Positions 3,659 to 8,916 of a stretch of DNA of 50,215 nucleotides are shown here, piece after piece. Position numbers and translations under genes: made by a program. The DNA is taken from positions 1-50,215 of the IMG/VR virus record IMGVR_UViG_3300047493_000197; one strand, written 5' to 3'. A model generated the notes under the pieces. That model was not told where the DNA came from. It saw only the letters and a list, made by a program, of their open reading frames with translations, and searched no databases. Numbering within the stretch: position 1 is the stretch's first letter; every line of letters begins with the position of its first letter. The stretch is from a virus.

Positions 3659-4282
3659 ATGGCCAAATCGAACGGTAAGACTGCGCGTGCGAAGTCCGGC
3701 AAGAAGCCAACACCGAGCCGGGGCAAGAAGAACGGTCACGCCAAACCGACAGCGGAAGCGCTGAGCGACCAACAGCGCCAGGCGCTCCTGTTCGCGCACG
3801 CGCGCAAGCTCAAGCCACTGCTCGCCGCGAAAAAAGACGCCGCCGACGAAGTGAGCCAAGCCTACGAGCTCGCCAAGAAGGAAGGCATCACCCGGAAGGA
3901 AATCGAACTCAAGATCGCGCTCGAAACCGGCGAAGGTATCGAGAAGATCAAGCTCGAAGTTGAGCGCACCAACCGGATCGCCCGCTGGATGGGCGTCGGC
4001 AAACAATTGACCCTGTTCGGCGACAGCGAGACGGTCGCGCAGCGGCATTACGAAGATGGGCGCCGCGCCGCGCTCAACGATCAGCCCGCCAAGCCGCCGG
4101 CGCATCTGGCGAGCAAAGACGCCGACACCTGGCTCCAAGGCCACGCCGCCGGCCGGCAATCGCTCAATGAGACGCGCATCCGCAGCATGCAGCCGGAAGG
4201 CCAGGTGTCGCTCGGTGATGCCGCGGCCGGCATCGTCAACAAGATCGGCGATCAAGCGCCGACGCATCGGGAAGCCGCCTGA
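3659..4282 (+). CDS. basic, helical protein with Rmf-like C-terminal domain
   Basis: 207 residues, start ATG 3659 behind GGGAGAG. The first 35 residues are very Lys/Arg-rich. Residues about 37-115 are alpha-helical and charged (QQRQALLFAHARKLK to TNRIARWMG), loosely reminiscent of GapR/DUF2312-type nucleoid proteins. Residues about 125-150 (EDGRRAALND, DTWLQGHAAGR) match the pattern of ribosome modulation factor-like domains found in alphaproteobacterial phages. The exact function is unknown; nucleic-acid or ribosome binding is an inference. It lies one base before the resolvase gene. Confidence 0.65.
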   Translation: MAKSNGKTARAKSGKKPTPSRGKKNGHAKPTAEALSDQQRQALLFAHARKLKPLLAAKKDAADEVSQAYELAKKEGITRKEIELKIALETGEGIEKIKLEVERTNRIARWMGVGKQLTLFGDSETVAQRHYEDGRRAALNDQPAKPPAHLASKDADTWLQGHAAGRQSLNETRIRSMQPEGQVSLGDAAAGIVNKIGDQAPTHREAA

Positions 4283-4283
4283 C

Positions 4284-4823
4284 GTGCAACAGGCCGGAAC
4301 CATCTTCGCTTTGGACCTCGCCGCGCGCACCGGGTTTGCGACCGGGCGCGCGGGCGAGCGTCCGCGTTCCGGCACCGTCATCCTCAAAGACCCGAAAGAG
4401 CCGCGCGCGGTGGCACTCGGCAATCTGATCGACTGGCTGAACGAGCGATGGTCGATCGAGAAGCCCGCGCTGGTGATCAAGGAAGCGCCGTTTTCGCTGC
4501 AAGCCTTCAAGGATCACGCGAACGCGGAAGCCACCGTGCTCATGACCTACGGGTTGCACGGCATCGTCGAGGCGATGGCGTGCCGGTTTGGGATTGAGTG
4601 CCGCGACGCGCACGCCGCGACCATCCGCAAGCATTTTCTCGGTGTCGGCCGCATGGGTTCACGCGTCGAGATGAAGCGCGCCGTGATCCAGCGCTGTCAT
4701 GTGCTGGGCTACATGCCGAGAGACAGCCATGACGATAATAGAGCCGATGCACTCGCGACGTGGGATTACGCGGCGGCAACCGTGCCGTCGAAGCTTTATC
4801 TGTTCGGGGAGCGCGCGGCATGA
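4284..4823 (+). CDS. RuvC-fold Holliday junction resolvase-like nuclease
   Basis: 179 residues from GTG 4284, one base after the previous stop. The RNase H/RuvC fold is indicated by FALDLAARTGFA (catalytic D11), VIKEAPF (E67) and the C-terminal DDNRADALA (D151 and D155). These form the usual acidic metal-binding set. It probably resolves branched DNA during phage recombination or before packaging. It overlaps the next gene by ATGA. The host RuvC is of similar length, but the spacing and sequence are phage-like. Confidence 0.82.
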   Translation: MQQAGTIFALDLAARTGFATGRAGERPRSGTVILKDPKEPRAVALGNLIDWLNERWSIEKPALVIKEAPFSLQAFKDHANAEATVLMTYGLHGIVEAMACRFGIECRDAHAATIRKHFLGVGRMGSRVEMKRAVIQRCHVLGYMPRDSHDDNRADALATWDYAAATVPSKLYLFGERAA

Positions 4824-5239
4824 CCAAGCGCCGCCGCATCCCGCCGCCGAAAGAGCGCCAGGCCGAGGCGGATTACCGCCAGCTCTGGCGCTTGGTGGAC
4901 GGCGCGCTCGCCGACGTGATCCACCATCATCCCGAGTATTTCCGCAGCCATGACTTGCGCGCGGTGCGATCAAGCATCGCCAAGCGCGTCGTCGGCGCGA
5001 TCAAGGGCTATGCCGGTCAAACGGCATGGGGCCGCTCCGGGGCGTCAACTCCGGCGGCTGACAAGAGCGGGGGCGTTTTAAAGCGCGCCCCTGTGCGCGG
5101 CCACCATGAAGCGGCCGTGGTGGCGGTCGTTTCATGCGGCGACCGCTTGCATCAAGGGCGCCACTTTGATGCAGAGACGGCACGGGCCGGCGAGTTCGTG
5201 CCGTCTCAATTTTCCCTGCATGACGTGGTGGCGGCATGA
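4820..5239 (+). CDS. hypothetical protein, C-terminal half uncertain
   Basis: 139 residues from ATG 4820 (overlaps resolvase stop) to a TGA overlapping the helicase start (ATGA at 5236). Residues 1-75 look coding: basic, helical, with EADYRQLWRLVDGALADVI and AVRSSIAKRVVGAIKGY. The second half (about 5045-5235) is built largely from DNA inverted repeats. These include GGCCAC near 5099 and an 11-bp terminator-like stem at 5174-5207, so its amino-acid sequence may be incidental. No family is recognised. Confidence 0.55.
   Translation: MTKRRRIPPPKERQAEADYRQLWRLVDGALADVIHHHPEYFRSHDLRAVRSSIAKRVVGAIKGYAGQTAWGRSGASTPAADKSGGVLKRAPVRGHHEAAVVAVVSCGDRLHQGRHFDAETARAGEFVPSQFSLHDVVAA
5174..5213 (+). terminator. 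intrinsic terminator-like hairpin before the helicase gene
   Basis: A perfect 11-bp inverted repeat (GAGACGGCACG at 5174-5184 and CGTGCCGTCTC at 5197-5207) has a 12-nt loop and is followed by AATTTT. It lies 23 bp upstream of the helicase/methyltransferase start and inside the 3' end of the preceding ORF. It could attenuate transcription into the helicase gene or be read through by antitermination. Confidence 0.6.
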
Positions 5240-8200
5240 ACGTTATGCCGCGCGATATCGCCGTGCCGGCGAACGGGGAGGGTGCCGACTATCGGCGCTT
5301 CCTCGAGGGGAAGGTCAGGCTCGCGGGGTCGAGCGGCGTCCCGGTGGGGCCGCTGCAAATCCATCCGCTGCTTAAGCCGCACCAGCGCGCGATCGTGCAA
5401 TGGGCCGTTGGGGGGGGCCGACGCGCGATCTTCGCGAGCTTCGGCCTCGGCAAGACCATCATGCAGCTTGAAATCGTGCGCCTCACGCTCGACCACGCGG
5501 GCGGCCGCGGGCTGATCGTCCTGCCGCTCGGCGTGCGGGCGGAGTTCGTGCGCGACGCGGCGACGCTCGGCATCGTGGTCAAGTTCATCCGCACGATTGA
5601 AGAGGCCGACGCCACCGGCATCTATCTCACCAACTACGAGACGGTGCGCGACGGCAAACTCGACCCGGCGCATTTCACCGTCGTCAGCCTTGACGAGGCC
5701 TCGGTCCTGCGCGGCTTTGGCGGCACCAAGACGTTCCGCGAATTCATGGCGCTGTTCGCCGGCGACGCGCGCCGGGCGGGACGGTCAAATGAAATCAAAT
5801 ACCGCTTCGTCGCTACTGCGACGCCATCGCCGAACGAATACATCGAGTTGCTGGCCTATGCCGCCTTCCTCGGCGTGATGGACGTCGGGCAAGCCAAAAC
5901 GCGCTTCTTCCAGCGCAACAGCGAGAAGAACGACGATCTGACGCTCTATCCGCACAAGGAAAAGGAATTCTGGCTGTGGGTCGCGTCCTGGGCGGTGTTC
6001 CTGCAACGGCCGTCTGATCTTGGCTACGACGACACCGGCTACGTGCTGCCGGAAATGAAAGTGCGCTGGCATGAAGTGCCGAGCGATCACAGCAAAGCCG
6101 GACAGGAGCGTGACGGCCAACAGCGCATGTTCCGCAACGCGGCCGCGAGCTTGTCGGACGCCGCGCGCGAGCGGCGTGACAATCTCGGCCCGCGCGTCGC
6201 CAAGCTCACGGAGCTCATCGCCGCCGATCCGGAGCCGCACCGGCTGATCTGGCACGATCTCGAAAGCGAGCGACACGCGATCGCCAAAGCCGTGCCGGAT
6301 GCGGTCGCCATCTGGGGCAAGCAAGACCTCGAAGAGCGCGAACAGCGCGTCGCCGATTTCTCCGACGGCAAGATCAAATATCTCGCGGCCAAGCCCGTGC
6401 TCGCCGGCTCCGGCTGCAATTTCCAGCGCCATTGCCACAAGGCGATCTTTCTCGGCGTCGGCTACAAGTTCAATGATTTCATCCAGGCCTGTTACCGCAT
6501 CCAGCGGTTCCTGCAAGGGCGCCCGGTCGAAATCGACATCATCTATTCCGAGGCCGAGCGCGATATCCGCGCCACGCTCGAAGAAAAATGGGCGCGGCAT
6601 AATGAGCAAGCCGCGATCATGTCGGCGCTCATCCGCGAATACGGGCTCGCCTCCAGCGCGCTCGCCGACACGCTCACCCGCACCATCGGTGCGGAGCGGC
6701 GCGAAGTCGCCGGCGAGCACTATCGGCTGATCAACAACGATTGTGTCGAAGAGACGCGCGCGATGCCGGCAGACAGCGTCGATTTCATCGTGACGTCGAT
6801 ACCGTTCGAGGGGCAATACGAATACACGCCGAGCTACAACGACTTCGGTCACACCGAGAACTCGGCCGAGTTCTGGGCGCAGATGGGCTACCTGATCCCG
6901 GAATTACTCCGTGTGCTCAAGCCCGGTCGGGTCTGTGCCATCCACGTCAAGGATCGGATCACGCCCGGCGGCATCAACGGCTTCGGCTTTCAGACCGTCA
7001 CGCCGATCTCCGATTACACGACGGCACATTTTACCCGGCACGGCTTCGCCTTCCTCGCCCGCAAGACCGTCGTCACCGACGTCGTGCGCGAGAACAATCA
7101 GACCTACCGGCTCGGCTGGACCGAGCAATGCAAGGACGGCTCAAGGATGGGCGCGGGCTTGCCGGAATACCTGATGCTGTTCCGCAAGCCGCCGACGGAC
7201 CGATCAAATGGTTATGCCGACCATCCGGTCGTCAAGACCAAGCCGCTGTCGCTCGACAAGAACGGCAACATCGTGCCCTACGAACAGGGAGACGCGATGA
7301 TCCCCGGCACCGGCTATTCACGCTCGCGCTGGCAAATCGACGCACACGGCTTCACACGCTCCAACGGCAACCGATTCCTGCAGCCGGCCGATCTCGTCGG
7401 GATCGATGCCGACGCCGCGTGGAAGCTGTGGCAAGCGCACTCACTCTCGCAGGTCTATGACTTCGAGCATCACGTCGCCTGTTGCGAGGCGCGCGAGGCC
7501 AAGAAGGAATTGCCCAAGACGTTTTTTCTGATGCCGCCGCACTCCTGGCACCCGGATGTTTGGACCGACGTCACCCGCATGCGCACGCTCAACGGCGCGC
7601 AGCACGCGGCCGGACGCGAACTCCATATTTGTCTTGCGCGCGGCTCGCGTGTACTGACGCGACGAGCAGGTTATGTGCCAATTGAGGAGGTGGCGGTCGG
7701 CGACGAAGTGCTCACGCACCGCGGTCGATGGCGGCCAGTCCTTTTGAAACAAAATACCGGTGTGCGCCCGGTAGTGACGGTCAAGGCGCATGGCGTGCCG
7801 GGGCTGACGCTGACGCCGGATCACAAGCTCTGGACGCGGCCGGTACGAAACCTTCCATGGTCAATCGACCATTCGCGCCGCGAGGCGCAACAGGCCGAAC
7901 CGCAGTGGGTCGGCGCCAGCGAGACTGTCGGCAGCTACGTCAACCTTAAACTGCCGCCGGCTGAAACGCCGGGGGTCGAAAGCCTGCGGCATTGGTGGAC
8001 GGTGGGCCGATGGCTGGCTGACGGCCATTTCAGTAAGGGCGCGCGTAGCTGGGTCATTTCGTGTGGACATCACGAGCTTGATTATCTGATCGCGCGGCTC
8101 GGTGAACATGGCAGCAACAAGCCGCATGACGTTGGCACTGGAATGCAGATTATCTTGCGGACGGATCGCGCATTGCGAGATACGCTTAAGGCCTGCGGGA

Positions 8201-8916
8201 CCGGGGCCGCCGGAAAGCATCTGCCACCTGAGGCTTTCACACTTCCGCTCGTGCAAGCCCGCGCTTTACTTGATGGATATCTGTCGGGCTACGGACATTT
8301 AGTGCCAGCGCGCCAGCACTGGATGGCGACTAGCGTTTCGCGCGACCTGTTGCTCGGCATCGCCTTATTGGCGCAGCGCGCCTACGGGGCAATCGCCAGC
8401 ATCTATCCCGGTCGGTCGCCAGCGACGGCGAAAATTCAAGGCCGCATCGTTTCGACGAAACAAGAGTGGATACTTAGTTTCGACATTCCGGGTGAACGGT
8501 ACAAAGGCCAGCCGCTCCTGCTTGAGGATGGCGCGTGGAAAAAGGTCCGCTCAGCCGCGCCTTGCGGCGAAGTCGAGACGTGGAACCTGCGCGTAGCTGA
8601 GGATGAGAGCTTCACCGCCGAAGGCTGCATTGTCAAAAATTGTCCGCTGCAATTCGACATCGTCGACCGCGCCATCGCGCAATTCACGATGCCCGGCGAA
8701 ACCGTCCTAGATCCATTCGGGGGACTTATGACGGTGCCTTACCGCGCCGTGCTGCTCGGCCGACAAGGCCTCGGCATTGAACTCAACACCGACTACTGGC
8801 GCGACGGCCAGCGCTATTGCGAAGCCGCCGAAGCCAAGCTCGCCGTCCCATCCTTGTTCGATCTGATAGAGGCCGACAAGGCCGCCGACGGCCCAATCAT
8901 GGAAGCTGCCGAATAA
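5236..8916 (+). CDS. SNF2-like helicase / DNA methyltransferase fusion with intein
   Basis: 1226 codons; after splicing the mature protein would be 889 residues. The N-terminal superfamily-2 helicase has motif I FGLGKT (K73), motif II DEAS (153-156) and motif VI QACYRIQR (about 417-424). The C-terminal part is an N4/N6-type DNA methyltransferase with catalytic motif IV TSIPF (520-524) and the SAM-binding motif VLDPFGG (1157-1163) last, i.e. the beta permutation. An intein (residues 799-1135) lies between the two methylase motifs, immediately before CPLQ. No nuclease domain is visible, so this is methylation plus DNA translocation without cutting. Phage proteins of this architecture (P1 DarB is one example) serve in anti-restriction. 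Here that role is inferred. Confidence 0.9.
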   Translation: MNVMPRDIAVPANGEGADYRRFLEGKVRLAGSSGVPVGPLQIHPLLKPHQRAIVQWAVGGGRRAIFASFGLGKTIMQLEIVRLTLDHAGGRGLIVLPLGVRAEFVRDAATLGIVVKFIRTIEEADATGIYLTNYETVRDGKLDPAHFTVVSLDEASVLRGFGGTKTFREFMALFAGDARRAGRSNEIKYRFVATATPSPNEYIELLAYAAFLGVMDVGQAKTRFFQRNSEKNDDLTLYPHKEKEFWLWVASWAVFLQRPSDLGYDDTGYVLPEMKVRWHEVPSDHSKAGQERDGQQRMFRNAAASLSDAARERRDNLGPRVAKLTELIAADPEPHRLIWHDLESERHAIAKAVPDAVAIWGKQDLEEREQRVADFSDGKIKYLAAKPVLAGSGCNFQRHCHKAIFLGVGYKFNDFIQACYRIQRFLQGRPVEIDIIYSEAERDIRATLEEKWARHNEQAAIMSALIREYGLASSALADTLTRTIGAERREVAGEHYRLINNDCVEETRAMPADSVDFIVTSIPFEGQYEYTPSYNDFGHTENSAEFWAQMGYLIPELLRVLKPGRVCAIHVKDRITPGGINGFGFQTVTPISDYTTAHFTRHGFAFLARKTVVTDVVRENNQTYRLGWTEQCKDGSRMGAGLPEYLMLFRKPPTDRSNGYADHPVVKTKPLSLDKNGNIVPYEQGDAMIPGTGYSRSRWQIDAHGFTRSNGNRFLQPADLVGIDADAAWKLWQAHSLSQVYDFEHHVACCEAREAKKELPKTFFLMPPHSWHPDVWTDVTRMRTLNGAQHAAGRELHICLARGSRVLTRRAGYVPIEEVAVGDEVLTHRGRWRPVLLKQNTGVRPVVTVKAHGVPGLTLTPDHKLWTRPVRNLPWSIDHSRREAQQAEPQWVGASETVGSYVNLKLPPAETPGVESLRHWWTVGRWLADGHFSKGARSWVISCGHHELDYLIARLGEHGSNKPHDVGTGMQIILRTDRALRDTLKACGTGAAGKHLPPEAFTLPLVQARALLDGYLSGYGHLVPARQHWMATSVSRDLLLGIALLAQRAYGAIASIYPGRSPATAKIQGRIVSTKQEWILSFDIPGERYKGQPLLLEDGAWKKVRSAAPCGEVETWNLRVAEDESFTAEGCIVKNCPLQFDIVDRAIAQFTMPGETVLDPFGGLMTVPYRAVLLGRQGLGIELNTDYWRDGQRYCEAAEAKLAVPSLFDLIEADKAADGPIMEAAE
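7630..8640 (+). mobile_element. intein (LAGLIDADG type) in the methyltransferase
   Basis: 337 codons in frame. It begins with Cys1 (block A: CLARGSRVLT, GYVPIEEVAVGDEV). Block B is LTLTPDHKLW (T62, H65). The first LAGLIDADG motif is GRWLADGHF (D131). The second, LLDGYLSGYGH, has Tyr221 where an Asp is expected. Block F is WNLRVAEDESFTAEG, and block G ends VKN with C-terminal Asn337. The extein +1 residue is Cys. The penultimate residue is Lys rather than the usual His; some active inteins tolerate this. Insertion is directly before the conserved CPLQ of the methylase. Base and codon use is more AT-rich than the flanks (for example AAACAAAATACC near 7746), consistent with transfer. Confidence 0.93.

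Follow-up and report, generated by a model that had tools for sequence, protein, structure and literature searches.

An intein within a phage helicase/methyltransferase gene

The window (the whole stretch of DNA analysed here) is a virus record of 50,215 bases. An open reading frame (ORF) on its plus strand, at positions 5236-8916, encodes a protein of 1226 amino acids. In profile searches the helicase part of this ORF matched the PHROG 16 DNA helicase family (E 3e-116) and the methylase part matched Pfam N6_N4_Mtase (PF01555), in agreement with the helicase/methylase host protein proposed in the initial annotation. In the N-extein (798 aa; 5236-7629, plus strand) an SF2/SNF2-type helicase, with a Walker A motif (FGLGKT, residue 69 of the ORF), LDEAS (residue 152) and a motif VI-like YRIQRF (residue 420), precedes the N-terminal portion of a beta-type N6/N4 DNA methyltransferase, which includes motif IV (TSIPF, residue 520). 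The C-extein (8641-8916, plus strand) comprises Cys+1, methylase motif X (CPLQFD, residue 1136; CPLQFDIVDRAI), SAM-binding motif I (VLDPFGG, residue 1157) and the stop codon. The methylase motifs are therefore in the order IV-X-I of beta-type N6/N4 enzymes, and in a profile alignment to solved methylases HLCPLQF aligns with the HPAPF-type motif X of 2zie.

Elsewhere the window encodes a Terminase_6-type terminase, a Mu-type portal and a sheath-like protein. The terminase is 70% identical to those of Rhizobium phages, its closest relatives, and no near-identical DNA to the window was found among phage records. An ORF 5' of the helicase-methylase gene (4056-4823; IFALDLAARTGFATG) resembles RuvC-like resolvases by eye and had no match in Pfam.

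The two exteins are separated by 337 residues (799-1135; 7630-8640, plus strand), which sequence and structural modelling confirm as a class 1 intein with an embedded LAGLIDADG homing endonuclease domain and predicted splicing activity. The intein starts at C799 (TGT, 7630-7632) and ends at N1135 (AAT, 8638-8640), after which the host protein resumes with C1136 and PLQ. The initial annotation had placed these borders, the 337-residue length and the 889-residue extein correctly to the base, and had rightly located the insertion directly before CPLQ, between motif IV and the SAM-binding motif.

Block A (CLARGSRVLT, 7630-7659, plus strand) supplies the nucleophile Cys1, and block B (TPDHK, 7813-7827, plus strand; residues 860-864) supplies the Thr and His of TxxH (T62 and H65 in intein numbering). 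The first LAGLIDADG motif (GRWLADGH, 8005-8028, plus strand; residue 924) keeps its catalytic Asp, which is intein residue 131. The second (8266-8301, plus strand; LLDGYLSGYGHL) contains LLDGYLSGYGH, with SGYG at residue 1017. Blocks F and G (8581-8640, plus strand; WNLRVAEDESFTAEGCIVKN) keep the terminal Asn, with Lys replacing the penultimate His and Glu replacing the block-F His, so that the C-terminal junction reads ETWNLRVAEDESFTAEGCIVKN/C (slashes mark splice junctions).

Profile searches, as the initial annotation had recommended, bore out the assignment. Pfam Hint_2 matched the intein at E 6e-6, just below the cut-off of that model, and PHROG 26446, an intein-bearing NrdD family, covered residues 798-1137 (E 9e-23). 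An AlphaFold2 model of the intein, built from ten aligned relatives, had a pLDDT of 90.7 and a pTM of 0.89. Its top PDB matches were homing inteins aligned over their whole length, including TliVMA (Z 26.7 over 302 residues), 2cw7 (Z 25.1) and PI-SceI (Z 20.1). Splicing domains alone matched the model with Z 18-19 and an rmsd around 2 Å, for example that of Mtu RecA (Z 18.7, 1.9 Å over 130 residues). The LAGLIDADG endonuclease fold is also present, as seen in the whole-length PI-SceI and TliVMA matches and in the appearance of I-DmoI among the matches. Cys1, the block B TxxH, N337 followed by Cys+1, the HINT fold and seamless absence from homologues all place the insert in class 1. The usual, non-obligatory penultimate His is missing (Lys336). 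Approximately 5% of functional inteins are without a penultimate His (PMC4031507), so class 1 membership stands despite Lys336.

The insertion site and its family of inteins

All 77 homologues that span the insertion site align without a single gap letter up to 6 residues from the junction (one of these 77 rows is an intein carrier, aligned only as far as the junction), and the empty site reads HLCPLQF or close variants. The seamless CPLQ junction expected by the initial annotation was thus recovered. These homologues also bear on whether the insert could be a normal domain of the methylase, such as a target-recognition region, and no splicing element at all. The reading frame is open across the insert and beta-type methylases do have variable regions, but the intein motifs and fold, the absence from every spanning homologue, and the occurrence of relatives of the insert in proteins unrelated to this one, NrdD and cytosine methylases among them, make that explanation scarcely credible.

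Within the methylase the intein sits at motif X, with motif IV (TSIPF) on its N-terminal side and motif I (DPFGG) on its C-terminal side. A predicted intein-free methylase domain from one homologous locus (L009) was poorly modelled near the site (pLDDT 68 overall and below 50 at residues 259-296 around it), and the location of the intein relative to the active site was therefore judged by sequence alignment to solved methylases. Before splicing, motifs X and I would be cut off from motif IV, and on these grounds methylation can soundly be expected to depend on splicing. Excision would take place after translation, through an N-S shift at Cys1, transfer to Cys+1, cyclisation of Asn337 and an S-N shift, and the joined exteins would form the 889-residue enzyme.

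Scans of virus and genome collections identified 44 distinct inteins at a single H[ILV]/CP site, counting that of the window, in phages or prophages of at least four bacterial phyla. Named carriers include Micromonospora, Dactylosporangium, Bradyrhizobium, [Pseudomonas] boreopolis, Duganella, a Planctomycetaceae genome, Prevotella and Proteiniphilum. In some carriers (L081, L084) the helicase and the methylase are separate genes and the intein site is unchanged. Our literature search, in a collection that is itself incomplete, found no account of such a multi-phylum spread of CPLQ-site inteins.

Several other loci recovered in the scans deserve mention. In Aureimonas leprariae (L107:5001-5876) a CPLQ-site intein ends at about residue 301, without blocks F and G or a C-extein, which indicates a broken prophage gene; no C half of a split intein was found within the 10.9 kb examined around it. 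A CPLQ-site intein at L128:4001-5011 has lost the catalytic acid of its first LAGLIDADG motif (Asp to Cys, LACGH). The virus contig of locus L086 carries, besides a CPLQ-site intein, a second and distant intein-like insert (LSPP/C...HNCKGF) in an ORF from position 7588. Approximately 15 distantly related inteins lie in apparent cytosine-C5 DNA methylases (loci L090, L091, L092, L094, L147, L148, L149, L150, L153, L157, L160 and L164-L168), directly before the catalytic Cys (GGFP/C...HN/CQPFSxAGKR). Splicing there would thus use the nucleophile of the enzyme itself as its +1 residue.

Cys1, both residues of TxxH and the final Asn are kept in 44/44 CPLQ-site inteins. At the penultimate position 39 have Lys, four have His and one has Ala, and the usual block-F His occurs in none of the 44. 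We counted the penultimate Lys and the block-F Glu of the window intein against a fully active element, as Asn cyclisation could be slow. Taken further, they would describe a splicing-impaired intein, slow or limited to cleavage, that yields a two-part or delayed methylase and perhaps acts as a timing switch, and the penultimate residue is indeed known to set splicing speed in the mycobacteriophage RDF intein (PMC5050341). However, the conservation of Lys in 39 of the 44 family members, together with the invariance of the remaining splicing residues, points to a working variant. Gly, Lys and Ser have been observed at the penultimate position of mycobacteriophage inteins, where the residue tunes splicing speed, and the natural non-His form of the RDF intein splices faster than its His mutant (PMC5050341). 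We therefore regard impaired splicing of the window intein as improbable and favour a copy that splices. A related, speculative and likewise improbable idea concerns the family as a whole: with Lys for the penultimate His and no block-F His, Asn cyclisation might be aided in another way, and a conserved slow or conditional step might time phage DNA methylation and so retain splicing-only copies after homing is lost.

Endonuclease state and horizontal movement

At intein residue 221, in the second LAGLIDADG motif, the window intein has Tyr (TAC, 8290-8292; SGYG) where the other 43 of the 44 inteins at the site have Asp, as do 38 of 39 inteins from outside the CPLQ site. Only one of the two LAGLIDADG helices therefore carries its catalytic acid (Asp131). 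Broad decay of the endonuclease was considered and rejected, as the domain deviates at just two of 34 near-invariant positions. Because it is otherwise well kept, the loss of Asp looks recent, or is a base error. Residue comparison across the family suggests that the homing endonuclease of the window copy is probably dead and has lost DNA cutting. The description of the intein as complete in the initial annotation accordingly holds for the splicing residues and probably fails for homing. PhoVMA provides a precedent: having lost LAGLIDADG active-site residues it was considered inactive, and it cut DNA once those sites had been grafted in again (PMC8966425). By this precedent the window copy should splice and not home.

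There is a smaller, real chance that the endonuclease is still active, either because D221Y arose by error in sequencing or assembly or because a neighbouring acid substitutes for the lost one. The codons for Tyr (TAC) and Asp (GAC) differ by one base, the change was seen in one virus contig, and the remainder of the endonuclease is intact at all but those two near-invariant positions. Against this, Asp is almost universal at the position both within and outside the CPLQ site, and the helicase-methylase ORF shows no other damage. We therefore prefer a probably inactive endonuclease.

Phylogenies of the intein and its host protein were in conflict. In a methylase tree of 117 domains the window fell in a starred clade whose 32 rows include 30 without an intein; the intein-free rows had been chosen as the nearest relatives of the window, which exaggerates the apparent isolation of its intein. 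The window intein itself grouped with a 21-row set containing actinobacterial inteins (97/100). By identity, the methylase nearest to that of the window (73%) is at locus L001, whose intein groups with Duganella-type inteins. In a set of 21 members common to the intein and extein analyses, the window and L001 had sister exteins (100/99), and AU tests rejected both a sister relationship of their inteins (p 7e-6) and an extein clade of the window with the actinobacterial carriers (p 4e-6). Locus L003 gave a second conflict between intein and extein trees in the same set (p 6e-5). The groups were named after the trees had been seen, which makes all of these p values optimistic. The conflict (AU p about 1e-5) indicates that the intein moves horizontally and, on this sequence evidence, the CPLQ-site intein is one that has been transferred between phages of distant bacteria. 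The intein closest to that of the window (65%) is carried by Micromonospora sp. ATA32 (L097:4143 onward). The methylase extein of that locus has a very long tree branch and its ORF is only 708 residues, and it may be damaged or recombined.

The initial annotation had also proposed horizontal entry from base use that differs from the flanks. Horizontal entry is upheld, by the conflicting trees as well as by base use, and the difference in base use is borne out in part. Overall GC was ruled out as a sign of foreign origin, since the value for the intein (0.611) is ordinary and lies inside the range of the coding blocks of the window (0.592-0.673). The extein has a GC of 0.819 at third codon positions against 0.662 for the intein, whose synonymous codon use is also more divergent (chi2 101) than that of equal-sized extein blocks (at most 56; permutation p 0.0005). 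These differences in GC3 and codon use agree with horizontal movement.

Taken together, we assign a probability of about 0.9 to the reading that motif X of this phage helicase/N6-N4 methyltransferase carries a mobile class 1 intein, one of a family presumably spread by homing, and that the window copy probably splices and no longer homes. The family would have spread across phages of different phyla, presumably by homing, with the endonuclease acting at the conserved H[LIV]CPLQ-coding site, and the D221Y copy would represent an early decay phase of the homing cycle.

Relation to known inteins

Methylase inteins are already known, and the novelty given to one in the initial annotation was overstated: mycobacteriophage cluster-F methylases carry an intein at the same site, and two methylase intein classes have been described (PMC5050341). 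The window copy lies in a new host group and has a probably dead endonuclease. The mycobacteriophage methylase intein is hereby extended to a phage of alphaproteobacterial type, and one site-specific intein can be followed across phages and prophages of at least four phyla, with the tree conflict as clean evidence of transfer. The window copy, with a single lost catalytic Asp, and its otherwise intact relatives form a natural study pair, and the CPLQ-site family is useful for the study of Lys in place of the usual penultimate His.

The closest known system is the mycobacteriophage cluster-F methylase intein (Pacc40 gp60, Squirty gp68 and Tootsieroll gp68), which interrupts the same helicase/N6-N4 methylase at the same CPLQ site. 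The window intein is 59-60% identical to the mycobacteriophage methylase inteins over all 337 residues (E 1e-118) and shares the VKN/C end of the Pacc40, Squirty and Tootsieroll copies. The second LAGLIDADG motif reads SGDG in the cluster-F inteins and SGYG in the window, the host proteins are approximately 48-61% identical by segment, and the cluster-F phages infect mycobacteria whereas the terminase of the window phage is nearest to those of Rhizobium phages. Kelley et al. (2016) distinguished DNMT-1 (seven inteins, clusters F1 and F3) and DNMT-2 (PMC5050341). The Pacc40/Squirty intein is apparently DNMT-1, judging by host clusters, gene type and number, and the site of the window intein (HI/C..N/CPLQ) is that of Pacc40 and Squirty, which places it in the DNMT-1 type. 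The Dorothy_75 methylase family of actinophages, described by Gosselin et al. (2023), likewise contains an intein in a phage DNA methylase that is patchy and has moved horizontally between divergent phages, but by its description it is a different methylase family, with two further insert types (PMC9957025).

More distant systems share the architecture of the intein. TliVMA, PhoVMA and PI-SceI have the same fold, a HINT splicing domain with a LAGLIDADG endonuclease (Z 26.7, 22.0 and 20.1), but are only 14-18% identical to the window intein, reside in a V-ATPase host protein and have larger accessory domains. PhoVMA, like the window intein, has lost a catalytic Asp, in its case in block E (PMC8966425). 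The anaerobic ribonucleotide reductase intein of Lactococcus phage 949 is 29% identical over its full length and also ends in VKN/C, but differs from the window intein in host protein and insertion site.
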